Of a stretch of DNA of 64,000 nucleotides, positions 8,248 through 37,573 are shown in pieces. Position 1 is the stretch's first letter. Every line of letters starts with the position of its first letter. A program made the translations under genes and the position numbers. The notes beneath the pieces are model-generated. The model ran no database searches. It was not told the origin of the DNA and saw only the letters and a list, made by a program, of their open reading frames with translations. Origin of the DNA: Pyropia yezoensis (taxonomy: Eukaryota; Rhodophyta; Bangiophyceae; Bangiales; Bangiaceae); assembly GCA_009829735.1 (NCBI GenBank), contig CM020619.1, positions 23,957,554-24,021,553 of the forward strand, given 5' to 3'.

Positions 8248-11200
8248 GGCAGGTCCAGGGAGGGAGGGGGGATGGGGACAGGAGGACGCCAGCGGGCAGT
8301 CTCGACGAGGGGACACCAAACGGGATGGGGGCAGGCCGTACGTGCCGAGCGGGGTAAGATGAACGGGGGGGTGGGGGGGGGGGGCCAACGCGGGCCGCCG
8401 CCCGGTGCGGCGCGCGACCAAGGAACCCCCCCCCCCCCTCCGTCGGCACCCAGCTGGCCCACGCCAGCCGCCGTGCGCCGAGCCCCGTAGCCACTGTCCA
8501 CCACCCACTCCGCCCCCACAAACCCTCACACCCCGATGCCGCTTCGCGCCCACCGACGGTGGGATCCTCTCCACCGCGGGAAAAGGGGCGCGGGAGGGAG
8601 GTAGGGACGTCGACCGCGCCAGCGACCGAGACGCCCCACCCCCAGCGGGGTACGGTACGGTACCGCCTCTGGGCACCGACGGCGGTGCGCCCGGCAGTGC
8701 AGCGCCGCCCTATGCACCCCCCCCCCCCTGCCCCCCCCCCCCGCACAACAACGACGATGCCAGCGGCGGGGGCGCCGCGGGAAGAGACGGACGCCGCCCA
8801 ACGACCGGGGGAGGGGGGGGGGGGGGGGGGAGACCGCCAGCCGCCGGCGCGGGGGGCGCGTCCTCCTCTCCCGACGCGACGCGACGCGACGCGACGTCGT
8901 CCCGACGCCGCCGCGGCATGCGCGGCAAGAAGCCCAGCCCAGCCGCTGCCGGCGCGCCGCGCCCGGGCGGTCAAGGACGCACCACCGCCCGCCGAGCGGC
9001 CCTGCCCCCAGCGCTCGGCACCCCTACCGTGTGGGTGTGGCGGACCCCCGGGGGGGGGGCCCCGCCCGGGATGCTTGACCGGCCCGTCCCCTCCACCCGC
9101 CGGTGGGTGCACCCAGCGAGGGCGAGTGCGTGGCGGGGGGGGGGGGCAGGGGCGGGCGCGGGGGGGTGCCGTCCACCCGCCCCGGCCACGTCAAGGCCCC
9201 CCCGCCTTCCTTCCCCGCGCGCACCCACACACCGCGACGGACCAAGGCGCGCCGAGACGGTGGTGTGTGACACACGGGCGTACCGCCCCGGCGGGGTCGA
9301 CACAAGCCTCCCCCGCGCCCCAGGCACAAACGCCACGCCCTAGAGGGCCCTCTGGCGGGGCGGGGACCGACCGACGCGCCAGCGACGCCAAGCCGCCTTG
9401 CCCCCCGCGCGCCGCCGTCGCGTGGCGGCGCGCCACCGGGCGGGGCGGGGGGGCAACAAAGCGCCGTTCCCCCCCCCCCCCCCCAAGCTGCTTCCCTAAG
9501 GCCGCGTCTTCCAAAAGTCCCCGCGAGCCCCCACCGCACTGCAGGCCACCCACACACGCTCCGGGGGCCCACGTCACCTGCGGGGACGGTCAGAGCGCCT
9601 ACGCAGCGAGCGGGGGGCGGGACGCGGCTCTGCCGGCGCCGGCCACGGCCACGGCAGAGGGGGGGGGGGGCGGGGCGGGGAGGGGCGAGCGGGGGAGAGC
9701 GGGCGGTGTCACCCCTCTGGGAGCAGAGCGCCGTCCCCCCCCCTCCCCCACAAACACACCCCGCCGTTGACGGGGCGGCACAGGGCCAGCTGGCCAGTGG
9801 GGATTCCCCACTGGGGAAGGTGGAAGGGGGTGTGTGGCGTAGAGGGGGGGGGTGGAGTACCCAGCCCTCGGCGTACAGTATAGTACAGTACGAGGATATG
9901 TACAGGACGACAGCACCAGGCCAGCACCGCCCCCCCCCCCCCCCTCGGCTATATACAACCGCGCGGCGTCCCACCTGCCCACGGGCTCCTGTCAACAGCC
10001 TCTGCTGCGCCGGGGGTGGTGTGTCGGCGGCCACGCGCCTACGTTGTGGCAACGAGCAGCCGCTGGGGGCCACAGCGTGGGGGGGGGGGGGGGGGGGGGG
10101 GGGTGGGGGTGGGGGTGGCGCCGCAGAGCCGCCGACCGTCGCTGCCCGCCGGCCCACCCACCCACCACACCCGGTGGGGGCGCGACGGGGGCGGCATCGG
10201 CAGCCCCACCGCTCCGCGGCGGTGGCGGCGGTGTGCCCCCACACACCCCACAGACGCGGCAGGCGAGCAGGGGGGGTGTCTGGAGAGCGCTGGCAGGCCG
10301 GCCGAGGGGGGGGTAGGGGGGAGGGGGGGTTAAACTTAGCGCGGCCGTTTGGAGGCTTGCCGCTGCCGCATCCTTGCGCGCAAAACGCGCGAGGGGAGGA
10401 CGTCGGAGGGGTGGGGGGGAGGGGGGGGGGGGCGGAAGGCCGGTGGGCGTGGCCGCGCCCCGCCGCGCCCCGCCGCCACTCCCCCCCACCCCCAGACAAT
10501 CACGTATGCACCGTCGGTGCCACGTGCCGCCCGACGTGGGCGCGCCCCCCACGCCACCCCGTCGGGGACGACGACGGCGGTATGTAGTCGTTGGGAAACA
10601 CCCCCCCCCCCCGCCCGGGCTCCTCTGCGGCAAGTGAGCGCTCCGAGCACACTCCCCGCCACACCCCGCTCCTCACCGGTCGGGCGTCGTCGTCAGTCGG
10701 GCGCGTTGCGTCCACGGGCCCGCCGTCTCTGCGGCGCGGCCCCGTCGGCCGACGGACGGGTGACTGGGCAGAGCCGGCGGCGGGGGGCGTGCCGCGGCTG
10801 CCATCGTCCCAAACCGCCGTCGATGGGGGGTGTGGCGGCGCCGCGGCGGGGGGGGGGGGGGGGGGGGTCGTATCGATAGAGCTCAATGCGAGAGGCCGGC
10901 CGGCATCGCCAGCCACCCCCCCATCACCGTCCGCGGGGTGTGGGGGGGGGGGGGGGGGGGTGGGGGGCAAGGACGAACAGCGATGGTGGTGATGGCAATG
11001 GGTGGGCGAGAGCAGCAGCCCAGCCGGGGAGACGAGCACAGCAGACGACGGAAGAGGGGGATGTGGGCAAGCGGAGGGGGGCGGTGGGGGGGGGGGGGGG
11101 GGGGGGCGCGGCTTGCACCCCCCCTCTGGCGGGGAAGCCCGGTGGGAAGGGGAGGGAGGAGGGGAAGGATACGTAGCGCCTGCTCGCCACGTGCCGTCCG

Positions 11201-12919: not shown

Positions 12920-13458
12920 TGTGGGAGATTGGGCCGGAATTCGGTACCAATACTTTGAAGATTCGGGTCAAGTGGACCTGACCGGAAGTCGAAATTCACC
13001 CGACCCACGATGGTGAAACTTCTGACTTCTGGACGGAAATTCGACTAGGACTTCCGACATACTAGAGCAGGGTAATGCTGCTGGTATTTGTTTCTTGGGA
13101 TTTTTGCACGGGAGCCAGACGGATTTCTACGCTTTGAGTTCTTTGCATGTGGAGTGATATGATTGGTTTGTTTGAGGGTTCATTTTCTGAGTGTTTTGAG
13201 GGGTTGCGTGAGCGTGTGAGGAGGGTTGATAAGGAGGGACAGCAAGGCGGGGAGGGCCCACCTTGGCTGGCCAAGCAAGAAAACACCGTCTGGCTCCGAC
13301 ACATCTTGTTCGTGCTTTGGTGAGTGGACCCGCTCACCACACGCAAGTTCCGTGTTCGGCTGTGTGGAGGTGCTTGCTTCCGGTGTCCCAAGTTGGGATA
13401 TCGGCAATACTCCTCTTCCTTCCCTGACTCGGGGTTGGTGCTTGGGAGTACTGCTACA
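12920..13458 (+). repeat. 5' LTR of the outer retrotransposon
   Basis: A 539-bp repeat beginning TGTGGGAGATTGG and ending CTGCTACA. It appears identical to 30888-31426, and as the 5' LTR it should hold the promoter for the gag-pol RNA. Confidence 0.96.
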
Positions 13459-13460
13459 GT

Positions 13461-13478
13461 TGGTGGATCAGCGGGGGA
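13461..13478 (+). promoter_or_regulatory. Candidate primer binding site, outer element
   Basis: TGGTGGATCAGCGGGGGA begins two bases after the LTR. TGG at the start fits pairing with a tRNA CCA end. The inner element has a closely matching site at the same offset. It is not the usual initiator-Met PBS (TGGTATCAGAGC), and I cannot name the tRNA. Confidence 0.55.
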
Positions 13479-13775
13479 GAGGATATCGACTTTGGTACCT
13501 CCCTTGACCGGAGACGGGACCAAGTTGGCCCCTCTCCCCCTTCGGCACCGAGACTTCCGGTGACACGATCGACTCGCCTACGTTCCGAGCGTTCGCTGGG
13601 CGACGAGGTTGGCCACCGTGAGTCTTGGTGGGAGACCCGGAGTTTCGGGAAACCTCACCGCCTTCCTTGAGGCAGGTGGAGGGGTGGAACGTGCTCTAGG
13701 AACTCCCTAGCTGACGATCCCCGACTCTGGACACCGTTTGGTCGTTTTGGTTGACTCCACGTGACTCTTGTGGAG

Positions 13776-15539
13776 ATGGCTGGTGAGGGAGACCCCCCCA
13801 TTGCGCCGAGTGTACCTGGGGAGGGGGAGCGTAGTCCTCCCCCGACGGGCGGAGTACCACCCAGGCCGGGCAGTGCGGATGTGGTGGGTCCAGAGGTTGG
13901 ACCCCGACGGCGATCGGCCAGGTTCCTTCCCAGGCCGTCACCGGAAGAGACGGGCGGAGTTCGCCCTTCTCCGGTGGGAGCGCCGAGCCAGCGTCAGGCT
14001 CCGGCAACCTCTTCGGGGAGTGACGACACTCACTTCGGCATGGGACCGCCGACCGGCAGAGGTGACGGGACAGGGAGTTCTGTACCCCGGGTTGGTGGGT
14101 CCGCGCCACGACTGGTGCCGGAAGGACCGGGTGGGAGCTCGAGTCAAGCTCCACCTGGATCATCCGGTATCGTGGATAACTCGGTGATGACTGCCATCGC
14201 ACAAGTCGTGCGAGAGGAGGTGGGGAAGGCGTTGAAGGGGAGCACCCCTCCGCCTGAGCAGGCCTCGAGGCGTCAGAAGCGACGGGAGATTCGACGTACT
14301 CTCCGTCGTGAGGTGGACTCGGAGTCTGAGTCCTCTGCAAGTGGCAAGTCGGGTGAAGAAGATCTTACTCGACATGGTCGTGTGACTCACACGGACCGTC
14401 TTGGGACTAGAGTCGTCCCAGGAAAGATCGTGGTGAATAATCCATTGTTCAAGGATGTCTTCGACTGTGAGACATATGGGTTGGTCAACAAGTCGTTGAC
14501 CTACTCAAATAGCCAGGCCCGTACCCTGGGCCGGCGCAAGAAACACGTTGCGCAATCCTTCGGGGTCCGTTCAGAATGGGACGGGACTCCACCCCTGAAG
14601 GTCTTCCAGTTTTTGCGGAAGTTCGCAAAAGCCTGCGATGACAATGATGTCTCTGAAGCTGAAGCGTTTTTCATGCTTCAGGACTTCACCAAGGAGCCAC
14701 TCCGCTCCGAGGTGATGAACGTCATGCCAAGTCGGCATGGTGGGAATCCGGGTGAGGTGACCTCCTACCTGGAGTTGGTTAATTGGATCCTTCGTCTTCA
14801 CGCAGACGAGGCTTCCTTGGCTGTGCAGGTTGAAGAGTTCAACCGCGCCACCCAGAGTAAGGGTGAAGAGGAACGGGAGTTCGCTGAACGACTCCGTCAG
14901 CTGAACGTCCTCTGTGGATTCCTATATCCCCAAGGAGTCATTAAGGGACGCTTTGTGGAGGGTGTCCACCGAGCAGCTCGAGCGACTGTGCGAGAGCGTA
15001 ATACTCCGACCATGACTCTGGCGGAGTTGGCACGCATCGCCCAGACTAAGGGTGATGAGTACCGCTGGCTCGTGTCTGAGCAGCGGAAGGAACGAGAGAA
15101 AGAAGTTAAGGGAATGGAAGCAAGTCGCTTCCGCAGAACTGCAAGGATGCCTTCCTACACGCGGACGTACCCTGCAGTACCTTCGTCCTCAACTCGAGAG
15201 ACGGAAGGTATGGTGGCCGCCATCCCTGATAAGTCACAGGGAAAAGCGGGGCCATCGGCGTCGATGAGTGATCGGCCGTGTTGGCAGTGTTCCAAGTCGG
15301 GACACTGGGCAGCCCAATGCCCCACTCTGGACGTTCGTTTGAGAGCCCTGTTGGCTCGTATTGGGAAGCTCGGTATTCCGAGGACTGATTCGGATACCCG
15401 GCCACACACCACACGTGTGACGGCCATGACTCAACCTAAGTCAGAGGATGAGTCCACGCTTGAGAAGGGGGAAACCTCTTCCCCCAGCTCAAGTGGCAAG
15501 GATACTCCATCATCCGAGTCGGATGAGGGAAACGCCTAG
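13776..15539 (+). CDS. gag: Gag of the outer retrotransposon
   Basis: Structural protein of the retrotransposon particle, 587 residues from the first ATG in frame; the frame is open to a GTG at 13761. A Pro/Gly-rich N-terminal region leads to a retrotransposon-gag capsid block starting near residue 228 (FDCETYGLVNKSLTY ... WDGTPPLKVFQFLRKF ... EVTSYLELVNWI). A CCHC zinc knuckle (CWQCSKSGHWAAQC, about residues 502-515) follows for RNA binding. The last residues are Ser/Glu/Asp-rich. The inner element's Gag has the same layout and clear similarity in the capsid block. The stop TAG (15537-15539) directly follows a slippery GGGAAAC at 15527-15533, so some ribosomes should shift to pol. Confidence 0.93.
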   Translation: MAGEGDPPIAPSVPGEGERSPPPTGGVPPRPGSADVVGPEVGPRRRSARFLPRPSPEETGGVRPSPVGAPSQRQAPATSSGSDDTHFGMGPPTGRGDGTGSSVPRVGGSAPRLVPEGPGGSSSQAPPGSSGIVDNSVMTAIAQVVREEVGKALKGSTPPPEQASRRQKRREIRRTLRREVDSESESSASGKSGEEDLTRHGRVTHTDRLGTRVVPGKIVVNNPLFKDVFDCETYGLVNKSLTYSNSQARTLGRRKKHVAQSFGVRSEWDGTPPLKVFQFLRKFAKACDDNDVSEAEAFFMLQDFTKEPLRSEVMNVMPSRHGGNPGEVTSYLELVNWILRLHADEASLAVQVEEFNRATQSKGEEEREFAERLRQLNVLCGFLYPQGVIKGRFVEGVHRAARATVRERNTPTMTLAELARIAQTKGDEYRWLVSEQRKEREKEVKGMEASRFRRTARMPSYTRTYPAVPSSSTRETEGMVAAIPDKSQGKAGPSASMSDRPCWQCSKSGHWAAQCPTLDVRLRALLARIGKLGIPRTDSDTRPHTTRVTAMTQPKSEDESTLEKGETSSPSSSGKDTPSSESDEGNA

Positions 15540-15589
15540 CCGCTGGGACTAAGACTGACCCAAAGGCTCCAGCGGTAATGAAGCGGGTT
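15527..15589 (+). promoter_or_regulatory. Predicted -1 ribosomal frameshift signal, outer gag/pol
   Basis: Slippery heptamer GGGAAAC (15527-15533, in gag frame as G GGA AAC) is followed by a 6-nt spacer that includes the gag stop. A stem CCGCTGGG/TCCAGCGG (15540-15547 with 15568-15575) comes next. The loop bases GACCC (15557-15561) could pair with GGGTT (15585-15589), making an H-type pseudoknot. The -1 frame is open from 15527 into pol, being closed by a TGA just upstream (15524-15526). The inner element has the same arrangement with the same spacer length. Confidence 0.8.
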
Positions 15590-16246
15590 GCTTCACGCTC
15601 ACCGACCCATGGGAGAGTGAAGGTCCTGACTCGACCTCGAGGGGTGAGACCTAGGGACAAGGCCCCTCCTCAGAAGCACGACCCGAGTCGGATTGTGTCA
15701 GTGCTGGTAGGGAGTAACTACCAGGTCGCAGCTCGACTCTGGCTGCAGGATGGATATGAGTTTACCTCTCGTGTCATATTCGACACAGGCTCTGCTGCCT
15801 CTCTCATTAGGCAAGACTTATTGCCAGAGGGGACGGATGTGAGCCCCGCCGGCTCACCCGAGTGGCGTATGTTTGATGTCAATGGGGGACTCCTCCCCAT
15901 TGTTGGGTCTATTGCATTGACTGTTTGCATTGGGTTCTACCAGACGCAGGTGAACTTTGGAGTAGTCTCCAATATGTCAGTCCCCGTACTCCTGGGAACT
16001 GACTATCTGGACCTCCATGTCCCGGCCGTCTGTGGACCGGAAGGGATAATCCGAATGCGTAATGGAGAGACTGTCCCCATATTGCGTAAAGGGAGGACTG
16101 TTTCCCCTACGACTCATCAACCTAGGGAAAACTCTCCCAAGGGTGGAGGCTCTACGACCCATGTACGAGTATGTAAGGGTACGGTAGTCCCGCCCCGATC
16201 AAGGACCTTTGTGCGAGTACGCACACGGTTTCGAGGGAATGGACTT
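15533..16246 (+). pseudogene. pol: Outer pol, 5' part: aspartic protease region, interrupted by the nested element
   Basis: This is the 5' piece of pol, open in the -1 frame relative to gag from the frameshift site; the first in-frame ATG is at 15578. It contains the retropepsin active site as FDTGSAASLI, with the catalytic Asp coded at 15782-15784, and a second conserved stretch MSVPVLLGTDYL. The frame runs cleanly into the 5' LTR of the inner element at 16247, where the native coding sequence stops. The rest of pol resumes at 25633 in the same frame once the insert and one copy of the GACTT duplication are disregarded. The gene is therefore broken only by the insertion. I see no other stop or shift. 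Confidence 0.92.
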
Positions 16247-16714
16247 TGTGGCAGTATTGACCCCCAGGTAGGGGGCAACACGTGCCATGCAAGGGGCGGC
16301 AGGCCACTAGCCTGATCCGTTCCTCCCCCTGCATTTGGGTCCATATTCCCTAAGTTCGGGATAGTTAGCTTAGTAGTAAATCCAACTTGGATTTGAGGGT
16401 TTTCTGCATTTATCGTCTTGAATTTTCGTGTGGCCCGGTGGGCAGGTGCTGGGGTGGGAGATTCTGAGTGGCGAGATTCTGAGTGGACCCTGGGGGGATA
16501 AGGGGAGGGACAGCGGGGCTTGGCCCTGCGTCCCCGTCCCGACCAAGAAACTGTTGGACCACACACCATCTTCTTGTTTGTCCGTGGGGGGATTGCCCCA
16601 CAACAGGGATAGAGTGTGTGCGACTTGCACTTCTTCCGGTTCCCCCGACACGGGAGGCAGCCCTCGCACACCGCCCCAACTTGGGTACTGTGTGTGCGAG
16701 TGGTTTTTGCCACA
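16247..16714 (+). repeat. 5' LTR of the inner retrotransposon
   Basis: A 468-bp repeat from TGTGGCAG to TGCCACA, so its extreme ends form a short inverted repeat. It holds a tandem pair GAGATTCTGAGTGG at 16458-16471 and 16473-16486. Confidence 0.96.
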
Positions 16715-16716
16715 TT

Positions 16717-16734
16717 TGGTGGAGCAGCAGGGGA
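16717..16734 (+). promoter_or_regulatory. Candidate primer binding site, inner element
   Basis: TGGTGGAGCAGCAGGGGA starts two bases after the LTR, the same offset as in the outer element, and differs from that site at only a few positions. Confidence 0.55.
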
Positions 16735-16833
16735 CAGAGGTAAACTTTACCTCCGGGTGCACCCGGGTGTAGGGGGCCCTCTGTCTCAGAGGAACGGTGG
16801 ACTTGGACCGTGTCATACGGATCGTTAGCCAAC

Positions 16834-18780
16834 ATGGCTAGCTCGGACCCCCCGTCGTCCGGGGAGTACACGGGTGACGCACGTACTTCAGTGCCTTTGA
16901 ATACTGGTGAGACACAGGTGGGTTTACCTGGGGTCGCAGAGGGACTAGAGGTCCCTCAAGCCAGCAGGACTGGAAGTGCGGGCGGGCAACAGGCCACCCC
17001 GACTCAGTCGGGAGTTCACTCGGGTGACACTTCTGACGTGGGTGGGCCGAAGTCTGGCCACCGCGTGGTATACTCAACGGGAACGTCCCAAGGGGTGAGG
17101 ACTGTCCCCGCGAGTTCCACTCGGGTTGGAGCCAACTTTGGCATGGAGCCATCGCCAACTAGGCTTTCGGAGGACGGCGGACCTCCGTTGGTCGGCGATG
17201 GGCTCGCGCCCATGCCCCCGGTTGAGACCCCTGAGGAACGTGGTTACCCCTCAGGTGGACTCCCGGAGGCGGACCGAGACTCAACTGGAGTCGTCAATCC
17301 ACTCCTCGCGGAAACTGTCCGTCGGGAGGCGACCAATGTGTTGCGGCAGACTTTGCCGGACCTGGTGGTCACGATGACGAATACTATTCTGAATCAGATT
17401 GTAGCGAGTTTGCCAGATGGCCTGAATGTCCAGACCGGATTGGGGCTTTCGAGCCCACAGGCGCAGGGGGAATCCCTCCCCACGCCTATCTCGGGTCGCC
17501 CCGAACTGGGGGCGACACCTGTGACTCCCAACGAGGGAGCCACACCATACGCGGTGGGGCGTACGCCCTTCACGGGGGAGTTCCCCTCGGAAACGCCGGC
17601 GGCTACACCAAGCGCGCCGCGCCAGACTACAGGCACTGAGGGTGGACTTACCCCAGTGCCACAGCGGCTGTTCCCTCAACGTGAGGTGCCGCCCAAGATC
17701 CAGGTAGCCAACCCGGTCTACCAGAGGATCTTTGACTGTGAGACCTACGCCCTCCACAACAAGTCGGTGGCGTATGGTCCTGACCAGGCCCGAGCCATGG
17801 GCCGTGCCAAGAAGAATGCACTTCACTCTTTTGGGCACAAAGCGGAGTGGGATGGAACTCCCCCCCTCCGTGTCTTTGAGTTCCTACGTCGTTTCACAAA
17901 AGCCTGTGACGACAATGCCATAAGTGAAGGCATGGCTTTTTACATGCTACAGGAGTTTACGAAGGGAGACCTGCGGACAGAACTTATGTCCGTCATGCCC
18001 AGCTCCTCAAGTGGAGGCGCTGGGGAGGTGACGTCCTATTTGGAGCTCGTCAACTGGTTGTTGAGGGCCATGGTTGATGAAGCGGCGTTGGCTTCTCAAG
18101 TCGAGGAGTTTACGCAAGCCCATCAGGAAGAGGCGGAGGACGAGTTGTCCTTTGCGGAGCGAGTCCGTAAGCTCAACAATCTTTGTGGGTTTCTTCATCC
18201 ACAAGCTGTGGTGAAGAGTCGGTTTGTGGAAGGACTCCACTGGTCAGTCCGGATGGAGACCCGGGAGCATAACACTGCCCGGGCGACCCTGGCCGAGTTG
18301 GCTAGGTTCGCCTACCGCAGAGGCGAGGCCTACCGCAAGTTGCGGGAGGAACAACGCCAGGAGCGTCAGGCCGAGTTGGCCAAGGAACGGGAAGAGGCGC
18401 GCCAGGCCAGAGAGTTGCGAGAGGCACGCCGAATCCGCAAGGAGAGGGTGGTAGCTGCCGTGGGAACTTCCCAAGGTACCTCGTCGTCTTCCCCAGTTGG
18501 GAAGACCCCTCCGGGAACTGATCATCGGTGTTGGAACTGCAACTCCGATGGTCACTGGGCATATGATTGCCCCAAGTTGAGTAAACGCATCCAACAGCTT
18601 GTTAGGAATGCGAGTAAGAAGTCGGCTACGAACGAAGTGCGTTCACGCCGCGAGGGTGGGTCTCGACCAGTGGTGGCGGTCGCCACACCCTCGACGGAGG
18701 GGGCGGACACGTCGTCCTCGGACTCGTCGTCGTCCCCTTCGCCCTCAGATTCGGACGCCAAGTCGGCGGGAAACGAATGA
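16834..18780 (+). CDS. gag: Gag of the inner retrotransposon
   Basis: Particle-forming protein, 648 residues from the first ATG; a GTG lies in frame at 16810. A long Gly/Pro/Thr-rich N-terminal region precedes the capsid block (FDCETYALHNKSVAY ... WDGTPPLRVFEFLRRF ... EVTSYLELVNWL). A strongly charged predicted coiled coil follows (EEQRQERQAELAKEREEARQ, around residues 506-525), then a CCHC zinc knuckle CWNCNSDGHWAYDC (566-579). The C-terminus is a Ser/Asp-rich tail. Its TGA (18778-18780) overlaps an ATG of the pol frame as ATGA and lies just after the slippery heptamer GGGAAAC. The capsid block is closely related to the outer element's Gag; the N-terminal region is not. Confidence 0.94.
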   Translation: MASSDPPSSGEYTGDARTSVPLNTGETQVGLPGVAEGLEVPQASRTGSAGGQQATPTQSGVHSGDTSDVGGPKSGHRVVYSTGTSQGVRTVPASSTRVGANFGMEPSPTRLSEDGGPPLVGDGLAPMPPVETPEERGYPSGGLPEADRDSTGVVNPLLAETVRREATNVLRQTLPDLVVTMTNTILNQIVASLPDGLNVQTGLGLSSPQAQGESLPTPISGRPELGATPVTPNEGATPYAVGRTPFTGEFPSETPAATPSAPRQTTGTEGGLTPVPQRLFPQREVPPKIQVANPVYQRIFDCETYALHNKSVAYGPDQARAMGRAKKNALHSFGHKAEWDGTPPLRVFEFLRRFTKACDDNAISEGMAFYMLQEFTKGDLRTELMSVMPSSSSGGAGEVTSYLELVNWLLRAMVDEAALASQVEEFTQAHQEEAEDELSFAERVRKLNNLCGFLHPQAVVKSRFVEGLHWSVRMETREHNTARATLAELARFAYRRGEAYRKLREEQRQERQAELAKEREEARQARELREARRIRKERVVAAVGTSQGTSSSSPVGKTPPGTDHRCWNCNSDGHWAYDCPKLSKRIQQLVRNASKKSATNEVRSRREGGSRPVVAVATPSTEGADTSSSDSSSSPSPSDSDAKSAGNE

Positions 18781-18843
18781 CCGTTGGAGCTGGTCGTCCG
18801 AAGCTCACAACGGCAGCCTCGGCCAAGTGGGCCAAGAGGACGA
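18768..18843 (+). promoter_or_regulatory. Predicted -1 ribosomal frameshift signal, inner gag/pol
   Basis: GGGAAAC (18768-18774) is read G GGA AAC in the gag frame. A 6-nt spacer (18775-18780) ends with the gag TGA. The stem CCGTTGGAGCT (18781-18791) then pairs with AGCTC plus CAACGG (18802-18806, 18808-18813): 11 bp with one bulged A and a 10-nt loop. Loop bases TCGTCC (18794-18799) are perfectly complementary to GGACGA (18838-18843), so an H-type pseudoknot is possible. Pol is open in the -1 frame. An alternative is reinitiation at the ATGA overlap (18777-18780). Confidence 0.85.
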
Positions 18844-21800
18844 ACCAACCGTGTCGGATACTGCGGCGACCTAAGGGAGTCCGCCCACCTCGGGTGGGAC
18901 TTCCCAAGAACGTAAACCCACGTCGGGTCATCGCGGTGCTGACGGGTGAGAACTTCCAGGTGGCTGGACGGGTGCAACTTGCCCCCGGCCGCGCCTGTTG
19001 TGCCCGTATCGTACTTGATACCGGGTCAGGAGCCTCCTTGATACGCAAGTCGCTATTACCAAAGGGGATGAGGCTCCAACGCTGGAAGTCTAAAGCTGAC
19101 CATCTGATCGATATCAATGGTGGGGTACTTCCCATCGTTGGTGCCGTGACCCTACCAACTCGGCTGGGGACCCATGAGGTCGACGTGACCTATGGTGTAG
19201 TTGAGAATATATCGGTACCCCTGCTTCTGGGTACCCCTTATGTCGTAACACAAGTGCCTTTGATTTGTGGCCCTGAGTACTGGGTCAAGTTGATGAATGG
19301 GGAGACTATCCCCATCCTTGGTAAGGGAAAGTCTGTGGCTCCTGTGACAGTTTCACAGTCGAAGCCTGTTTGTTCTGTGAGGGAAGGGTTTACTGCTACT
19401 CTGCGTTTAGCCCGTAAAGTCATGTTGCCCCCCAACTCGGTGGCGCACGCGGATGTTGTAACTGATTATGCGGGGAACGGGTTGGTGCACCCTAACCCCC
19501 GTCTTGCTCGCAAGCACCAAGTGCATGTTGCCCTTGGCACGATGGACTCCAAAGCCGGAGTCCCGTGGAGGATCCAGGTGATGAACCTGAGCTCGTCGCC
19601 CAAGTTCTTCAAGTCGGGGGCCAAGTTCGGCTATATCGACCAACACGAGGGACCGGTAGTAGCGGTCACCCTCAGCGCGGGCGCAAGTAGCGACCCGAAG
19701 TCCGGAAAGGAGAAGCATCAAGCCAAGTCGGCCGCCTCTCCTCGGCCCCAGGTAAACATGGAGGGTGTTCCACCCAGGTTGAGGGTTCAAGTTGAACGCC
19801 TCTTGGACCAATATCACAAGTTGTGGGATGGTCAATTGGGACTCATGAGAGCTACCCAACACCGGATCGAGTTGAAACCCGGTGCGCCCCCTATACGCCA
19901 ACAACCGTATAGGGGGGGACCCCGTTCAAGGGCCCTCGTTAAGGAGCAAGTTGCTCGCATGGAGGCCCTCGATGTGATCGAGGCCAGCAACGCCGAGTGG
20001 GCGAGTCCGGTGGTGATCGTCCCCAAAGTTGATGGGACCCCCCGGTTCTGTATCGACTACCGTAAGCTCAACGAGAGCACGGTGAAGGATAGTTATCCCC
20101 TACCTCGGATGGATGACTGTCTGGACTCTCTGGGGGAGGCAAACGTGTTCTCTACCCTGGACTGTAACGCGGGGTACTGGCAAATTCCCATTGCCCCGGA
20201 GGACAGGCATAAAACTACCTTTACCTGTCACTGTGGTACCTACCAGTGCAAGCGCCTACCGTTTGGCCTGTGTAACGCGCCGGCAACTTTCCAGCGCGCT
20301 ATGGACATGATTCTGGCCGGAGTACGGTGGCAGATCTGTCTCGTGTACCTAGACGATATCATTGTGTTCTCCCGAAGTCCGGAGGAACACATTGGCCATC
20401 TTGGCCAGGTGTTCAAGCTACTTGCTGACGCCGGAGTGTCACTGAAGGCGAGTAAGTGCCACCTCTTCACTCAAGAGGTGGAGTACTTGGGACATGTTGT
20501 CCGTCCGGGGCGTCTCAGTGTCAACAAGAAAAACTTGAGGGCCATCCGCAAGGCTCAGTACCCCCGGACCCAGACCCAGATGAGGAGCTTCCTCGGGATG
20601 TGTAACGTGTACCGACGTTTCACTAAGGGCTTCGCCAAAGTGGCGAAGCCGTTGAATGAGTTAGTGAGCTCAACGCTACCGAAGAACCTGCCTCCCCCAA
20701 GTCGGGTGGAGCAGGAATCCTTTGAGACTCTTCGGGACCTTCTGCTGAAGCCCCCTATCCTGGCTATTCCCAGGTTGGGAGGCCACTACATCCTGGATGT
20801 GGACGCTAGCTACGACCAACTTGGTTGTGTGTTGCTTCAGCAACAGCCGGACAAGGAGTACTTGCCGGTGGGATACTTCAGCAAGGGGCTAAACTCGGCC
20901 GAGAAGAACTACGGAGTCACCGAGTTGGAAGGACTCGCAGTGGTATGGGCGGTGACGTCACTTCGTCACTACCTAGAGGGTGAGAAGTTCCTCATCCGCT
21001 GTGACCACCGCGCGTTGCAGTTCATCTTCAAGACGGACTGTACGAACACTCGTCTCAACCGGTGGAGGGTGCGACTTGCACCCTTCAACTTTGATATTGA
21101 GTACCGACCTGGCAGGCAACATGCCCTTGCCGACGGCCTCTCTCGGGTACCTACCGAGGGACTGGACACCACCCCAGTCGATGAGGACATCCCCATCGTG
21201 GGGGTAGTCACGCGCTCGGGTCAGGCGTTGAATCCCGAGGCGCCAGGGAACAAGAAGTACTTGCCCCTGTCCCTGGACGAAGTAGTGAAGGCCCAGGCCG
21301 AGGATCCCTTCTGCAAGTCGCAGAGGGATACCCTGGATACAGTGGCGGAGACGCGGTTCTTCCTGGGAGACGATGGCCTCCTCATGAGGAGGGGGGTATT
21401 CCAGGGGACCGAACAACTTGTCGTCCCCGCATCCCTCAAGGACAGTATCCTTGAGAGGGAGCATAACGCTCCCACGGGTGGACACCTGGGGTCTAGTAAA
21501 CTGTACCAGACCCTGAGGACCAGGTACTACTGGCCGTCCATGGTGGTGGACATCTACAGTTGGGTGGCTGCCTGCACAAGTTGTGCACAGAACCGTCTGA
21601 TGGAACGGCGGCCTACTACGGCTATGCTATTGTTCCCGGCCAAGGAGCCCTTCGCCGCGTTGGCGATGGACATCCTTGGGCCACTGCCAGTGACCGAGGA
21701 GGGCAACCAGTACCTCCTGGTCATCTGTGACCGCTTCACGAAACTTACGCGAGCGATCCCACTGGCAGAGATCACGGCCATGTCGGTCGTGTCAGCCTTC

Positions 21801-22760
21801 CTAGATCACTGGGTTGCCGCGTATGGCATTCCGGATAGTACACTATCGGACAATGGACCGCAATTTGCGTCTGTACTGTTTCAAGGAGTGCTGGATATGT
21901 TGGGGGTTAAGGCAAACTATGCCACCCCCTACCACCCACAAACTAATGGGCAGGTGGAGCGCTTCAACAAAACTATTGTTAGGCAGCTGCGCCATTATGT
22001 GAGTGAGCACGTGAAGACGTGGGACCAATACATTTCTATTCTGACCACTGCCTACAATTCGCAGGTTCACTCATCTACCGGGGAAGTACCCCTCGCTTTT
22101 GTGACCCCCCGTCGCGTGCGGTCTATTGCCGTGCGGCGGCCGCTCCCAACTAGGGAGGATGGTGGCAGTACGCCCACTCCTACTGAGAGTAAGGCGGAGT
22201 TCGCTGCTAGGCTTGAAAACCTCATCCCTAAAGTCAGGGCTGAGATGGACAAAGCACAAAAGCGCTACAAGCGTACCTTTGACAAAAAGGTGCGCAACGC
22301 CAAGCATGTCCCCGAGCAGGGTGACTGGGTATTGGTCCACTCACACACCCCAACTGGGGGTAAGTTGGTGTTCCAGACGAAGGGGCCGTACCAGGTCCTT
22401 CGTACTGATGGGCGGCGCTTCACCATCGAAAGTGACGATGGGGTCCGCACAGTGAACGGACAGGACGTGGTCAAAGTTGCACCACCGCCTGCAGGCGACC
22501 CAGCTTGGGCGCGTGCCTTGAAAACGTGGCGCCTGCCCTCGCTGCCTGCAGCCAAACAGGGCCCGCAGGAGTACGTGTTCGACAAGTTCATCGACCACGG
22601 CTGGGATGAGGATACTGACCGCCTCATGTTGAGGGTGCGTTGGTTTGGCTACAAAGCCAAGGACGATACGTGGGAGTATGTGGAGGACCTTCCTGCTGAG
22701 AAGGTCCGGGCGTACTGTGCCCGGAACGAGATAGACCCTAACAGCCCTCCCTCAACGTGA
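18777..22760 (+). CDS. pol: Pol polyprotein of the inner retrotransposon (PR-RT-RH-IN-chromodomain)
   Basis: A complete 1,327-residue frame, in -1 relative to gag. Retropepsin has LDTGSGASLI with DTG at residues 81-83. Reverse transcriptase has FCIDYRKLN near 424 and the catalytic YLDD at 524-527. RNase H starts near 674 (DVDASYDQLG) with the later E and D of the family in VTELEGLAVVWAV and CDHRAL. Integrase has the HHCC finger from His896 (H-x-H with CTSC downstream) and the triad Asp965, Asp1025, Glu1061 with the standard 35-residue spacing. A GPY motif is near 1203. The C-terminus (1265-1318) is a chromodomain with LMLRVRWFGYKAKDDTWEYV, which in related elements steers integration to marked chromatin. 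No stop or frameshift is seen and all catalytic residues are in place. Normally made as a Gag-Pol fusion. Confidence 0.97.
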   Translation: MTVGAGRPKLTTAASAKWAKRTNQPCRILRRPKGVRPPRVGLPKNVNPRRVIAVLTGENFQVAGRVQLAPGRACCARIVLDTGSGASLIRKSLLPKGMRLQRWKSKADHLIDINGGVLPIVGAVTLPTRLGTHEVDVTYGVVENISVPLLLGTPYVVTQVPLICGPEYWVKLMNGETIPILGKGKSVAPVTVSQSKPVCSVREGFTATLRLARKVMLPPNSVAHADVVTDYAGNGLVHPNPRLARKHQVHVALGTMDSKAGVPWRIQVMNLSSSPKFFKSGAKFGYIDQHEGPVVAVTLSAGASSDPKSGKEKHQAKSAASPRPQVNMEGVPPRLRVQVERLLDQYHKLWDGQLGLMRATQHRIELKPGAPPIRQQPYRGGPRSRALVKEQVARMEALDVIEASNAEWASPVVIVPKVDGTPRFCIDYRKLNESTVKDSYPLPRMDDCLDSLGEANVFSTLDCNAGYWQIPIAPEDRHKTTFTCHCGTYQCKRLPFGLCNAPATFQRAMDMILAGVRWQICLVYLDDIIVFSRSPEEHIGHLGQVFKLLADAGVSLKASKCHLFTQEVEYLGHVVRPGRLSVNKKNLRAIRKAQYPRTQTQMRSFLGMCNVYRRFTKGFAKVAKPLNELVSSTLPKNLPPPSRVEQESFETLRDLLLKPPILAIPRLGGHYILDVDASYDQLGCVLLQQQPDKEYLPVGYFSKGLNSAEKNYGVTELEGLAVVWAVTSLRHYLEGEKFLIRCDHRALQFIFKTDCTNTRLNRWRVRLAPFNFDIEYRPGRQHALADGLSRVPTEGLDTTPVDEDIPIVGVVTRSGQALNPEAPGNKKYLPLSLDEVVKAQAEDPFCKSQRDTLDTVAETRFFLGDDGLLMRRGVFQGTEQLVVPASLKDSILEREHNAPTGGHLGSSKLYQTLRTRYYWPSMVVDIYSWVAACTSCAQNRLMERRPTTAMLLFPAKEPFAALAMDILGPLPVTEEGNQYLLVICDRFTKLTRAIPLAEITAMSVVSAFLDHWVAAYGIPDSTLSDNGPQFASVLFQGVLDMLGVKANYATPYHPQTNGQVERFNKTIVRQLRHYVSEHVKTWDQYISILTTAYNSQVHSSTGEVPLAFVTPRRVRSIAVRRPLPTREDGGSTPTPTESKAEFAARLENLIPKVRAEMDKAQKRYKRTFDKKVRNAKHVPEQGDWVLVHSHTPTGGKLVFQTKGPYQVLRTDGRRFTIESDDGVRTVNGQDVVKVAPPPAGDPAWARALKTWRLPSLPAAKQGPQEYVFDKFIDHGWDEDTDRLMLRVRWFGYKAKDDTWEYVEDLPAEKVRAYCARNEIDPNSPPST

Positions 22761-22871
22761 GGGAAGGCCGAGCAACAGTGCCAAGAGAGTGCTTCAAGTC
22801 GAAGTGGTACGCAGAGTGGCTTTAAACTACAGCCCTAACCCTCACACTCTCACAACAAAGGCAGCTGCCAA

Positions 22872-24815
22872 CTAGGCACGCATGCTAGACTCTCCCACTC
22901 CACGGCCCTCGCCCTCACGTGGAGGCGAGCGGCGAGACCCACGCCGATAACGGTCTCCACTCGTTGGAAGGGGCGGCGGCTCCAAGTCGGAACCGTCGCG
23001 CCCCTCACGGTCGCGCAAGTGGCGCCGACCGTGGCTACTCTTCTGCCTGGTCTTGCGCGCAAGTTTGCGACGCAGACGCTGGACAGACTCCGTCTCCGAT
23101 GGGGTAGAGGACTCCGAGACGGAGTAAGACAACTCGTCTTCCGACACGGAGGGAGAGCGCCGCGAGTGACGGCGACGACGGCGAGGAGGCGAGTATGCCC
23201 GGCTCGCACGACGCTTGCCACGCCCAAGTGGGGTTGGCTGGGGCATAATAGCCCCAATGCGAGCCAACTCGGCCGTCATAAACTCCGCCACCGACTCGCA
23301 ACTCGCGGTCGCCACTGCAGTACGAACGCGCTCCTCAAGTTGAGGAGTCTCGGAACTTTGGAGGGTTGCGGTCGACGCGGCCAACCAGGAAATGGTGCGC
23401 ACCAACGTGGTGATCATCATCTCTGAGGTTAGAGGCGTGGGCGGTAACACCAACTTGGGGTATACCGTCAGGAGGGTGGCCCCCAAGTTGGGAGACACCG
23501 GTGTGGATGACTCCACGGCCACGCTGATCGGGATGTTCCCGTGAGGCTGGAAAGGAACAGGAGGAAGCGGAGGGGCACGCCGAGGTGGCGGTACCCGGGT
23601 GTAACTGCGACCCCGACTTGGGGCTCCCGCAGTAGGTTGAGTCATATGGTCATCATATGAGGGCACAGCCATAACTATGGGCTTGTCCGGGGGTGGCGCA
23701 GTGTGACGATCCACCCCCGGGGCATACGGGTAGTCCCCGATGCCCAACCCCTCTCGTAGGACCACACGGCCGTCGTGAAGTTCACGAGCGACCCACACGA
23801 ACTGGCGAAGTGCGCCATCGTCCTTGGGCCCCCGAGTGGGGCGGCGCAACTTGTGCTCAATGCTCTCCCACTCGATAAACTTGTGGAGGCGGAGCATCTC
23901 CTCAAGTAGAGTGAGTTGTCCTGACGAGCACCCCTCAGCAACTAGCTGAGGGGTGAGCTGTTCCAAACCCTGGATGAGCCGGAGGGGGAGATGCCAGAGC
24001 ATCCCCCGCCGCTGAACACATGACACCCAGGTCGACATGACCTCGAGGAGCCACTGGGTGGCCAACATGGCCCACACCAGATGATCAGGGCCAGCCGTCA
24101 ACATGACGGAGCCGAAGTGGTCAAGCAACCGTGGCAACAATGCCGGGAACCCGTAGGGGACCTCAACTTGAGGCCACCACTCGGGCTTCTTCGGGTAGTA
24201 TTGCTCCTTACTGGCAGCAGACTGCTGAGGAAACTCAAGTTGAGCCGAGGTCACCAAGTAGGGACCTCGCCGGAAGTCCTTCTCCATCCGCACATCAAAG
24301 TGATGAGTGTGCGGATCGGCCTCGTGAAGGTACGGGGGGCGAGTTGCCACCGCGTCCCAAGTGAAGGTCGGCAAGTCGCCGGGACCCGGGATAGTTCCCC
24401 CGCGGTCCACCATGGCCTTGGCCCGCTGCACGTCCTCGACCTCCTCGTCGTCCAGGAAGGCAAACTGGTCCGTCCTGAAGCCGGCAGGGAACCCGACCCT
24501 ACGGGGATACTTCTCCCGTAGGCGGTCCCATACCCGACCCATCGCTGCGCCGAGTCGGCCACAGCGAAGAACAGTCAACCCCTCCTCATACAGAGGCCAA
24601 GCGGGGTAAAACCACCGCCCCAAGGCCTCACGCGGGACAACTTGTCCCGCCTCCGGGGGAGATCCTGCCGTCAACCCAAAGCCGGGTGACGCGGGAGTCC
24701 CACCCCCCGGAGCGATCGCGGAGCCCCCGCCGGAAGTCCCGGCAGGCGCTGCACCGTAGGAGGTGTCCTCCATACGCTCATCGAGAGAGTCCGTCTCCAC
24801 TCCCGGAGTCGCCAT
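22872..24815 (-). CDS. Antisense ORF of the inner retrotransposon, SR-rich C-terminus, function unknown
   Basis: A 647-residue frame lies on the strand opposite gag-pol, between the end of pol (111 nt away) and the 3' LTR. The frame is open 57 codons further upstream, but ATG 24815 resembles the start of the related outer ORF best. The N-terminal 60 residues are Gly/Pro/Ala-rich. Residues about 80-330 form a folded-looking part with PYLHEADPH, EWWPQVEVPYG and a helical stretch WAMLATQWLLEVMSTWV. The C-terminal 130 residues are Arg/Ser-rich (RRRRRHSRRS, then alternating SES/RRK), like an RS domain or nuclear-localisation and nucleic-acid-binding tail. I recognise no known domain. The homologous antisense ORF in the outer element argues for real coding. 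It would need its own antisense promoter, perhaps in the 3' LTR or the 340 bp before it. Confidence 0.7.
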   Translation of the reverse strand: MATPGVETDSLDERMEDTSYGAAPAGTSGGGSAIAPGGGTPASPGFGLTAGSPPEAGQVVPREALGRWFYPAWPLYEEGLTVLRCGRLGAAMGRVWDRLREKYPRRVGFPAGFRTDQFAFLDDEEVEDVQRAKAMVDRGGTIPGPGDLPTFTWDAVATRPPYLHEADPHTHHFDVRMEKDFRRGPYLVTSAQLEFPQQSAASKEQYYPKKPEWWPQVEVPYGFPALLPRLLDHFGSVMLTAGPDHLVWAMLATQWLLEVMSTWVSCVQRRGMLWHLPLRLIQGLEQLTPQLVAEGCSSGQLTLLEEMLRLHKFIEWESIEHKLRRPTRGPKDDGALRQFVWVARELHDGRVVLREGLGIGDYPYAPGVDRHTAPPPDKPIVMAVPSYDDHMTQPTAGAPSRGRSYTRVPPPRRAPPLPPVPFQPHGNIPISVAVESSTPVSPNLGATLLTVYPKLVLPPTPLTSEMMITTLVRTISWLAASTATLQSSETPQLEERVRTAVATASCESVAEFMTAELARIGAIMPQPTPLGRGKRRASRAYSPPRRRRRHSRRSPSVSEDELSYSVSESSTPSETESVQRLRRKLARKTRQKSSHGRRHLRDREGRDGSDLEPPPLPTSGDRYRRGSRRSPPREGEGRGVGESSMRA

Positions 24816-25159
24816 GGCTCTCCCCAAGTTGGGGAGAGACGTCCTGGCTATCGCGGCACGAGACCCGCCTCGAGTTGAGGGGGACTCGGATCGTGGGTAA
24901 ACGGGTGGCCTCCCCAGCGTGGGGTGGCCCCGTGTAAGGTGAAGGAGAAGTGGTGGTGGTGGTGAGGTGTGAACCGAGGAGAGCAAGCTGCCAAGTGGGC
25001 AAGCTTGAGGAGAGGGGCGGCCAACGTGACCGCCTCCACATCCGCGTTACGTACTCAAGGGGGGACAGCAAGTCGCGTCCCCCCCCCCAACGCCGAGACG
25101 TGCGTTTACGCACCCCCTCACAGGGCCGACCGGGTCGGTCGGAACTGAGGAGAGGGGAG
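24816..25159. other. Leader of the inner antisense ORF, ending in the polypurine tract
   Basis: This 344-bp segment lies between the antisense start codon and the 3' LTR. On the + strand it ends in the polypurine run GAGGAGAGGGGAG (25147-25159), the plus-strand primer site. It should also contain the antisense promoter or 5' UTR; no clear TATA element is visible. Confidence 0.6.
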
Positions 25160-25627
25160 TGTGGCAGTATTGACCCCCAGGTAGGGGGCAACACGTGCCA
25201 TGCAAGGGGCGGCAGGCCACTAGCCTGATCCGTTCCTCCCCCTGCATTTGGGTCCATATTCCCTAAGTTCGGGATAGTTAGCTTAGTAGTAAATCCAACT
25301 TGGATTTGAGGGTTTTCTGCATTTATCGTCTTGAATTTTCGTGTGGCCCGGTGGGCAGGTGCTGGGGTGGGAGATTCTGAGTGGCGAGATTCTGAGTGGA
25401 CCCTGGGGGGATAAGGGGAGGGACAGCGGGGCTTGGCCCTGCGTCCCCGTCCCGACCAAGAAACTGTTGGACCACACACCATCTTCTTGTTTGTCCGTGG
25501 GGGGATTGCCCCACAACAGGGATAGAGTGTGTGCGACTTGCACTTCTTCCGGTTCCCCCGACACGGGAGGCAGCCCTCGCACACCGCCCCAACTTGGGTA
25601 CTGTGTGTGCGAGTGGTTTTTGCCACA
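25160..25627 (+). repeat. 3' LTR of the inner retrotransposon
   Basis: A 468-bp copy of 16247-16714 with no mismatch found by eye, followed by the target duplication GACTT (25628-25632). Confidence 0.96.
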
Positions 25628-28600
25628 GACTTGTTTCCCCCGTGGACCGAGTCTATTATACTCACCAAGTGCAAGTTGCTTGGGGCCCCATGACTTGTGG
25701 GGATGACCAAACCTGGTGGGTGGAGGTCCTCAACACGTCGGAGGAACCTCGACGACTCCCCGGAGGCATGAAGATTGCGTCGATCTCTACCTTTGAGGGG
25801 AATGTCGTTGCTGTGACTCAACAGCAATGGGAGGATATTGGAATGGCAGGCTCTGCCGACCAATCGAGTTCATCGACGGCTAAGTCGCCGACGGTACATC
25901 GGGAGAACATCCCGGAGTGTTTACATGGACGACTGGATGAGTTAATCCAGAAGCATCACAAGTTGTGGAATGGTGACCTTGGGCTCATCAAGGCCACCGA
26001 ACACAGAATCGTGTTGAAGCCAGGGGCTAGGCCAGTTCGCCTGAGTCCCTACCGTATGGGACCAGACTCACGGGAACTCACCCGAGAGCAGGTCCAACGG
26101 ATGCAAGACATGGGTGTCATTGAGCCTTGCTCAAGTGAGTGGGCCAGTCCCATAGTCTTGGTGCCCAAGTCAGACGGCACGATGCGGTTCTGCATCGATT
26201 ATCGTAAGCTAAACGAGCGGACGGTAAGGGATAGTTACCCCTTACCCCGTATGGACGATTGCCTTGACTCACTCGGTGAGGCACAGTACTTTTCCACGTT
26301 GGACTGCAACGCGGGGTACTGGCAGATACCCATCCGCAAGGAGGACAGACACTTGACCACCTTCACGTGTCACTGTGGAGTTTATCAGTGTACACGGCTC
26401 CCTTTTGGGCTTTGCAATGCACCTGCGACTTTCCAGCGTGCTATTGACTTGATACTTGCCGGAGTCAAGTGGCAGATCGCCCTGGTGTATCTGGACGATA
26501 TCATTGTGTTCTCCGGGACTGCCGAAGAACACTTGTCCCACTTGGACAGAGTGTTTACCCTGTTGGGTGAAGCAGGAGTAACACTCAAACCTACGAAGTG
26601 TCACCTCTTTAGTAATGAGGTGGAGTACCTCGGCCATATAGTCCGGCCAGGTCGCATTCTGGTCAATGAGAAGAACCTCATGGCCATCCGTCGGGCGAAG
26701 TTCCCCCAGACGCAGACACAACTCAGGAGCTTCCTGGGTATGTGTAACGTATACAGACGCTTTGTGGCGAACTATGCCAAAGTGTCTGCACCGTTGAACC
26801 ACTTGGTAAGTTCCAAGATGCCCAAGCGCTTGGATGCTCCCAAACCCCCGGAGCAAGAAGCGTTTGATAGGTTGCGAGAGCTCCTCTGCAACCCACCGGT
26901 GTTAGCGATCCCGAGACCGGGGGCTCACTACATCGTTGATGTGGACGCAAGTTACGACCAACTCGGTTGTTGCTTACTCCAACAACAGCCTTCGGGGGAG
27001 TATTTACCCGTTGGCTATTTCAGTAAGGGACTCTCACCCGCCCAGAAGAACTATTCTGTGACGGAGGTAGAGGGTCTTGGCGTGGTATGGGCAGTCTCCA
27101 TGCTACGGCCATACATCGAAGGAAGGAAGTTCCTCATTCGATGTGACCACAAGGCTTTGAAGTGGATACTCACCACTACAGCCTGTACGAATAACCGACT
27201 CAATCGATGGCGACTCTGCCTCGCTGAGTTCGATTATGATGTTGAATATCGGCCAGGCCCGAAGCATGCGGTTGCGGACGCGTTGTCTCGCATACCGACG
27301 GATGGGAAAGACACTTCCCCTATCCCTGAGGAACTCCCTCATGTGGCAGTGACCACTCGCTCCGGAACTGTCCTCGACCCGAGGATGCCTGGCATGGCCA
27401 AATTATTACCCGTGTCTTTGGATGAGTTTGTCCAGGCACAGGAGAGCGACAAACTTTGTCGACGACTCAGGAAGGAGCTCGACCAGGCTCAACCGACTCG
27501 GTTCTTCCTGAATGACAACGGCATACTCTGCCGTAAGGGATATACCCAGGGGGACAAGCAAGTCGTCGTCCCCAAGGAGTTACGCAAGAGTATCCTCCAA
27601 CGGGAGCACTCCTCACCGTTGGGTGGACACCCAGGGTCTACGAGGATGTATCAGACCCTACGTAAGAAGTACTATTGGCCATCACTCGTGGCTGATGTGT
27701 ACGGATATGTAGCCGCATGCGCGACTTGCGCAAAGAATAGACTCATGGAGTCTCGGCAGACTTCTTCCATGAGACTCTTTCCTGCAACAGAGCCGTTTGC
27801 AGCGATAGCAGTGGACTTACTCGGTCCACTACCACGAACACCTGAAGGATATGAGTACCTTCTGGTGATGTGTGATCGCTTCACTAAGCTCACACGGGTA
27901 TCCCCACTCAAGGATATCACAGCCGTGGACGTTCTGAGTGAGTTACTCGACGTCTGGGTTGCCAGTTATGGCATCCCCGACTCTATCCTTTCGGATAACG
28001 GACCACAGTTTGCGTCCGTCCTGTATCAGGGAGTCATGAAGATGTTGGGGGTGCAGACGAACTTCGCCACCCCTTACCATCCCCAGACTAATGGGCAGGT
28101 GGAACGATTCAACAGGACTCTAGTGCGCCAGTTGCGTCACTATGTCCATGACCATGTAGTCACATGGGCTCGTTATGCGTCACTACTCGTGACAGCATAC
28201 AACTCCCAGGTACACAGTAGTACGGGAGAGGCACCGTTTGCCTTCGTCTGCCCCCGACGACTTCCGTCAGTAGCTGTGGAGCGTCTCACCCAGACTGAGG
28301 GTGAGACTTCGACTCAAACACCGAGTCAGGCGAAAGCCTCCCTACTCCAGAGACTGGAGGAGATGATACCCCTTGTCCGGGCTACTATGGAGAAGGCCCA
28401 AGCCCGTTACAAGAGGTACTTCGATGTCCGAGTCAGACATCGTCGCGATCCGCTCCGAGTTGGAGATTGGATTTATGTTAACTCCCACGACAATAAGGGA
28501 GGGAAATTGGTCTTCAAGACTCTGGGACCATATCACATCCTTAAAACGGATGGACGTCGGTTAACCATCGAGAGTGATGATGGTATCCGGACAATAAATG

Positions 28601-28953
28601 GGAATCACGCGACTCGCGCACCCGAACCCCCAGAGGGAGATCCCGCTTGGGAAAGGGCTTTGCAAGCATGGAAAGTCCCATCCTTGCCGACCTCTTCCAA
28701 TAAGCCATTGGAGGCGGTGTTCGACAAGTTTGTCGGGCACGGATATGATGAGTCGGGGCGACTCATGCTCCGAGTCAGGTGGTTCGGGTATGGACCAACT
28801 TCCGACACATGGGAGTTTGTAGAGGACCTACCAGTAGAGAAGGTCCGTAGATACTGCCAGACTGTGGGCATATCTATACGCCGACGTAGCACTCGTACGT
28901 CGGGGGATGAAGTCCCTGCTCCAAGTCAGAGCAGAGCGGCAAGCCAACCATGA
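25628..28953 (+). pseudogene. pol: Outer pol, 3' part: RT-RNase H-integrase-chromodomain, separated by the nested element
   Basis: Coding resumes immediately after the inner 3' LTR and continues for 1,106 codons from 25633, in register with the 5' piece ending at 16246. Reverse transcriptase (FCIDYRKLN, then YLDD coded at 26488-26499), RNase H (DVDASYDQLGC), integrase HHCC finger from the His at 27607, and the D, D35E triad (codons at 27814, 27994 and 28102) are all intact. It ends in a chromodomain with LMLRVRWFGYGPTSDTWEFV. Similarity to the inner Pol is high throughout the catalytic domains but differences are many, so the families separated well before these insertions. The part cannot be expressed normally because its start lies 9.4 kb upstream beyond another element. 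The final 126 nt overlap an antisense ORF. Confidence 0.93.
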
Positions 28954-37342: not shown

Positions 37343-37384
37343 CGCCTCCTTCCAGCCATCGTCCGCGCCATCGTCGCCGCCGCC

Positions 37385-37475
37385 ACCCTCCTCCCCGCCA
37401 CCAACCGCTCCACCACCGCCACCGCCAACGCCACCGCCACCGCCACCGCCACCCCCCTCCCCGCCACCAACCGCC

Positions 37476-37507
<32 letters not shown>

Positions 37508-37541
37508 GCCACCGCCACCCCCCTCCCCGCCACCAACCGCC

Positions 37542-37573
<32 letters not shown>

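Follow-up and report, generated by a model that had tools for sequence, protein, structure and literature searches.

The Gag-Pol protein of a Ty3/gypsy element in the red alga Pyropia yezoensis (nori) is very probably made by -1 programmed ribosomal frameshifting at the heptamer GGGAAAC, to judge from the layout of its gag/pol junction. An earlier note on this DNA had proposed such frameshifting, and the proposal gained support when the same slip-and-stop layout was found in three further families, one of which has its -1 frame closed directly 5' of the heptamer. The fungal setting did not hold, as the host is a red alga. By the features that can be tested in sequence, the pseudoknot excepted, the junction is a -1 frameshift site in a Ty3/gypsy element. 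The signal recurs in distant relatives and is therefore probably real and old.

Two nested elements and the inner gag/pol junction

The window, by which we mean the whole stretch of 64,000 nucleotides that was analysed, contains two nested LTR retrotransposons, the inner one sitting inside the pol of the outer one. Their main features are as follows.

12920-13458 and 30888-31426: LTRs of the outer element, 100% identical to each other, flanked by CCGCG
13761-15539 (+): gag ORF of the outer element, ending DEGNA-stop
15527-15539 (+): outer cassette GGGAAAC GCC TAG, with a TGA directly 5' in the -1 frame
16247-16714 (+): 5' LTR of the inner element, TG...CA, 100% identical to 25160-25627
16810-18780 (+): gag ORF of the inner element, first ATG at 16834, with a zinc knuckle (zf-CCHC, E 2.2e-05), ending SAGNE-stop
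18768-18774 (+): slippery heptamer G_GGA_AAC in gag phase; a canonical heptamer is likewise placed in three other families
18775-18780 (+): 6-nt spacer GAATGA, with the gag stop TGA at 18778-18780 and the ATG of the pol ORF at 18777
18777-22760 (+): pol ORF of the inner element, -1 relative to gag, with protease, reverse transcriptase (RT), RNase H, integrase and a weak chromodomain
25160-25627 (+): 3' LTR of the inner element, 100% identical to 16247-16714

Because the LTR pairs of both nested elements (12920-31426) are 100% identical, both insertions look recent. GACTT flanks both LTRs of the inner element and constitutes a 5-bp target-site duplication. This element has the attributes of the Ty3/gypsy group, namely LTRs, a gag with a zinc knuckle and a pol in the order protease, RT, RNase H and integrase. 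Its protease was placed by eye from the DTGSG motif in the translation and not by Pfam, and the Chromo match in its Pol (E 9.6e-4, 19.5 bits) lies under Pfam's cut-off of 25.1.

Read directly from the sequence, the inner gag ends G GGA AAC GAA TGA. The earlier note had described GGGAAAC in gag phase, a 6-nt spacer ending in the gag TGA and a pol open in the -1 frame, and all three were confirmed, the -1 frame being open from 18618 to 22760. The junction thus has the X_XXY_YYZ of a eukaryotic heptamer-type site in the 0 frame within the ORF overlap, together with a downstream ORF in the -1 frame that is open across the site. Readthrough of the gag stop was rejected as a route to Pol, since it cannot reach a pol that is in the -1 frame and not in the 0 frame.

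Could such a layout have arisen by chance in decayed copies? Slippery-like heptamers number 70 and 72 per 64,000 on the two strands of the window, or about 1 per 900 positions, and this rate is what speaks for chance. However, the spacing is identical in four diverged families, and in both elements of the window the paired LTRs are identical and the ORFs long. Among the 2129 stop codons in the window (any frame, both strands), 4 have a canonical X_XXY_YYZ at the spacing of the cassette, and 2 of these 4 end the gag ORFs of the nested elements. We consider chance so improbable as to be nearly negligible.

Several other features of the window were recorded. Both nested elements have a long antisense ORF between pol and the 3' LTR (22872-24986 and 28828-30459, both on the minus strand). 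Their predicted products are related to each other, at 30% over 132 aa and E 5e-11, and have no Pfam match; the inner one has one relative (97%) among the public proteins scored. If such a third, antisense gene is conserved in these elements, it would merit separate study. A dense array of direct repeats lies at 37306-38075, with related inverted copies near 58072-58202, and there are two probable host genes, one with a ChaN/Tiki-like haem-binding domain (2739-4661, plus strand) and one encoding a DHHC palmitoyltransferase (5964-8519, minus strand). According to the P. yezoensis genome report (PMC7423979), repeats make up 48% of the genome and LTR retrotransposons predominate among them.

The junction in other families and copies

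The gag of family F ends GGGAAAC GAG TAG and that of family G ends GGGAAAA GAG TAA, in which the Asn codon has become a Lys codon and the site is still canonical. In each family read, pol is in the -1 frame relative to gag. Identity between the inner and outer Pol proteins is 60% (the outer represented by the public protein P0005, whose start matches the outer pol) and between inner and G it is 44% (G represented by the public protein P0012, whose first residues match family G). The Pol of family F, taken as 500 residues of one copy, is 51% identical to G, 40% to inner over 490 residues and 38% to outer. The Gag proteins of inner and G share 29% identity over 69 residues. Despite sequence differences between the gag tails, inner, outer, F and G all end in G-N-x or G-K-x. 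Because the families are related by descent, the layout that they share is a case of conservation and not of independent origin.

To survey further copies, we picked loci through protease or RT motifs and not through the heptamer. The sample represents part of the copies in the genome. Four loci that repeated another locus were left out before counting. The matches listed comprised 97 distinct loci, of which 79 could be placed on the junction and 18 could not, these being masked, truncated, with the junction outside the stretch in view, chance motif matches, members of another clade or, for some, unexplained. Loci L001-L008 are outside the 79 as they were found through the heptamer itself, and one search motif was built to pass over the form found in the window's inner element, so that the 79 under-represent this form. 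L085 and L086 form the other clade, a separate group of nori retroelements whose gag is different and for which no junction of this kind was in view.

Among the matches listed, 64 of the 79 placed copies carry a canonical heptamer: 21 of 22 in the outer group, 21 of 28 in the inner, 6 of 8 in B, 1 of 2 in C, 12 of 13 in F and 3 of 3 in G. It is broken in the other 15, among them the single listed copy of each of L039, E (GGGGAAC) and H (GGGAAGC). Two of the inner group's 21 canonical copies (L018 and L019) have the natural variant GGGAAAT, which is still canonical. An A-to-G difference at position 6 of the heptamer (...AAGC) was seen in eight placed copies from different subfamilies (L062, L065, L067, L070, L073, L075, L081 and L106); it could reflect common descent, a hot spot of mutation or an alternative site.

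For 53 copies at least 390 gag codons and at least 500 pol codons were in view. Both frames were open in 12 of the 41 copies whose heptamer is canonical and in none of the 12 in which it is broken (Fisher one-sided p 0.03, a comparison that age confounds). As old copies lose everything together, this result is consistent with a need for the heptamer and is not proof of it. An intact gag and pol without the heptamer, set beforehand as the refuting case, was not seen among these 53 copies. In L081 and L106 the heptamer is lost, and too little sequence is visible to judge the frames. A pattern search of viral contigs for DNA of relatives gave 23 matches, none of which was confirmed as a relative.

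The same ending was found in public proteins, where gag tails were compared as protein sequence, the codons not being seen. Exactly Gly-Asn-x (GNE or GNA) closes 17 of 31 gag homologues, another 6 come close (ENE, RNE, KND, ENK, or extra residues past GNE or ENE) and the remaining 8 have other tails. One of the 17, P0126, has the tail of the outer family, and two are from Pyropia vietnamensis, in which five of the gag homologues are annotated. By comparison, 72 of the 15919 positions (0.45%) in the 31 proteins have a G with N or K after it (binomial 3e-32, a value that ignores relatedness).

It could be speculated from these 17 proteins that the tail is kept for a protein reason, such as the Gag terminus, and that pol is expressed otherwise, for example by splicing. 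Nevertheless, family G has replaced Asn by Lys and retained a canonical slip site, and the G that precedes GGA is in the wobble position of four different codons, for four different amino acids. The -1 position of pol in each family read, and the outer -1 frame that opens exactly at the heptamer, likewise tell against a protein reason. We regard it as highly improbable.

The point at which the pol frame opens bears on how ribosomes would enter it. A TGA stands immediately before GGG AAA in the -1 frame of the outer element. Upstream of the heptamer this frame is open for 9 nt in E, 12 nt in B (two of the three copies read) and 15 nt in F, compared with 51-54 nt in G and 150-186 nt in inner and C. 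Because the -1 frame is closed or nearly closed 5' of the heptamer in outer, E, B and F, entry into pol by a -1 shift must lie at or next to the heptamer.

The earlier note had offered a rival to frameshifting, coupled termination and reinitiation, in which gag ends at its TGA and a restart on the overlapping AUG (AUGA) yields a separate Pol, as in victoriviruses. The inner element does have ATGA at 18777-18780, the first 32 bases of its cassette have 287 exact genomic copies that all carry ATGA, and a junction ATG in frame occurs in 23 of the 79 placed copies. All 23 belong to the inner subfamily, however (23 of its 28), and AUGA is not conserved family-wide. The first pol-frame ATG past the stop is at 38 nt in outer, 98 in E, 158 and 275 in B, 185 in F and 323 in C, and none is in view in family G, yet the heptamer persists in most families whose first pol ATG is distant. 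Moreover, the structure is 3' of the site here and 5' of it in victoriviruses. As the junction AUG is confined to the inner subfamily, stop-restart is not the shared mechanism, and the comparison across families led us to reject it as the main one. Although some Totiviridae use reinitiation, as mentioned in PMC5009743, we judge it very unlikely for these elements.

A combination of the two was also considered, in which frameshifting is ancestral and restart on the AUG of the inner subfamily gives some extra free Pol. The AUGA is kept in 23 of the 28 placed inner-subfamily copies beside the heptamer or its remains, as such a combination would have it. On the other hand, the ATG is one or two changes away from the GTG or GTA of sister copies and may be incidental, and the copies are young and related. 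We think the combination unlikely, and frameshifting by itself remains the preferred reading.

The hairpin and the putative pseudoknot

The following structures are predicted downstream of the two heptamers.

15540-15575 (+): outer hairpin CCGCTGG...CCAGCGG, from the first base past the stop (MFE -12.6 over 36 nt)
18781-18813 (+): putative stimulatory stem 1 of the inner element, arms 18781-18791 and 18802-18813, bulged A at 18807 (MFE; pairing in 32 rows)
18794-18799 (+): proposed loop strand TCGTCC of pseudoknot stem 2, complementary to 18838-18843
18821-18833 (+): candidate small hairpin GGCC-AAGTG-GGCC between stem 1 and the downstream pseudoknot strand (in the 75-nt MFE; no double change)
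18838-18843 (+): proposed downstream strand GGACGA of pseudoknot stem 2, complementary to 18794-18799

The 11-bp stem with one bulged A that the earlier note had placed at the base after the stop was recovered within the ViennaRNA minimum free energy (MFE) structure. Stem 1 (CCGTTGGAGCT / AGCTC-A-CAACGG) starts at 18781. Over the next 36 nt the predicted structure has -16.8 kcal/mol and z -3.35, and 0.7% of 300 dinucleotide shuffles fold as low. The stem is unchanged over 48 and 75 nt, where the shuffle share is 15% and 3%, respectively, and 1.9% of 5890 33-nt windows of the gag-pol region fold at least as well.

We aligned stem 1 across the inner clade in 52 rows (51 loci, which include L001-L008, and the window's own copy), which reduced to 32 distinct rows; four of the loci are the same place twice, and no row was dropped for gaps. 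In the distinct rows 95% of the pair cells of stem 1 are standard, compared with 28-45% in slid controls. Compensatory changes, which the earlier note had suggested looking for in both stems, were found in stem 1 at a single pair of the inner clade (17-43 of the cassette, T-A to C-G in 11 rows). Among 1000 shuffles, 2 reached the observed share of paired cells, 2 the observed number of double-change cells and 942 the observed number of double-change pairs. Stem 2 fared differently: 88% of its cells pair in the 32 rows, a share equalled by 263 of 1000 shuffles, and no covariation was found in them.

The loop TCGTCC is exactly complementary to GGACGA, but this match is at chance level when taken alone, since 201 of 500 shuffled downstream stretches equal it (G-U allowed). 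All 6 pairs of stem 2 form in 13 of the 32 rows and the 5 core pairs in 24, with the first pair lost in about half. In L039 an 8-pair helix is kept in the stem-2 register (19 of 500 shuffles; 172 for subfamily B and 64 for C), and it may be read as the one hint of a pseudoknot. With the pairing at chance level and covariation absent, we rejected the pseudoknot as an established fact; in the inner element it is possible. For the outer element, a loop-loop contact between TGACCC and the loop GGGTTG of the next hairpin was dropped, as 106 of 500 shuffles equal it and the loop differs in L012 and L037 (compared by eye).

In 36-nt folds a hairpin starts 6-7 nt past the heptamer in inner, outer, E, F and G, those of outer, E and G having the same place as the inner one and another sequence. 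The stable 3' hairpin expected 5-9 nt downstream of a heptamer-type site is present over this length in inner, outer, E and G, is weak in F (-9.2) and is lacking locally in H. The outer hairpin has z -1.91, with 4.3% of shuffles as low and 19% of 2439 36-nt windows of the region folding equally well. The combined p for inner, outer, E, F and G is 9e-6, and with H it is 4e-5; here the 0 of 300 shuffles for E was entered as 1 of 300, and the length of 36 nt had been chosen to fit the hairpin. Over 48 nt significance fades except in E, the shuffle shares being 15% for inner, 28% for outer, 1.7% for E, 85% for F and 26% for G, so that E alone is below 5%. Support for the hairpin is moderate and varies with the length folded.

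Proposed mechanism and known systems

The mechanism that we propose would run as follows. A ribosome that reaches G_GGA_AAC would hold tRNA-Gly in the P site and tRNA-Asn in the A site. The hairpin just past the gag stop, 6 nt downstream, would have its base at the ribosome entry tunnel and would hold ribosomes there. The tRNA-Gly and tRNA-Asn (Lys in family G) could then slip in tandem on G_GGA_AAM, and the fraction that moves one base back to GGG_AAA would read into pol (...S-A-G-N-R-M-T-V...). Ribosomes that do not shift would read GAA and stop one codon after the slip. That ribosomes slip in the living cell, how efficiently they do so and what the hairpin contributes are inferred from the established behaviour of such sites. 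According to PMC5009743, G_GGA_AAC is one of the most shift-prone heptamers on mammalian ribosomes.

Beyond the single element, we lean towards the view that an old, clade-wide module of 13 bases (GGGAAA[C/A] NNN stop), followed by a hairpin, governs Gag-Pol synthesis in most bangialean gypsy families. In this module gag ends one codon past the slip, the -1 frame is nearly closed upstream in several families, and stems are freely replaced while heptamer and spacing stay fixed. Among the open-access papers listed on frameshifting and on red-algal genomes and retroelements, we found no red-algal frameshift site and no account of how the ratio of Gag to Gag-Pol is controlled in nori LTR retrotransposons. 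If the module is real, no earlier -1 frameshift set would have been described for red-algal LTR elements, and perhaps none in Archaeplastida. The nori site would also offer a native candidate -1 frameshift element for red algae, and the natural variants (TGA, TAA and TAG stops, an Asn or Lys slip codon, swapped stems) a comparative set on what a stimulator needs.

Signals like the one in nori are already known from retroviruses. The closest parallels are the gag-pro or gag-pol -1 sites of the retrovirus SRV-1 and the lentivirus FIV, which combine GGGAAAC with a pseudoknot. The heptamer is identical, and the spacer, the presence of a 3' structure and the purpose of making Gag-Pol are alike. In contrast, the nori element differs in clade and host, its gag stop is one codon past the slip, and its pseudoknot is only putative.

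Victoriviruses use AUGA stop-restart with a structure 5' of the site. They share the ATGA overlap with the inner subfamily of nori but differ from nori's other families, where the AUG was not found, and from nori in general, where the structure is 3' and not 5'.

Among LTR retrotransposons, plant elements as of 2003 had only +1 arrangements, according to PMC5009743, which also relates that a 2003 survey found gag and pol in a -1 arrangement in 28 of 51 animal elements. The nori elements resemble the animal ones in having pol in the -1 frame and a classical heptamer near the end of gag; they differ in that the set is red-algal and in that the window for the shift is very narrow in several families.
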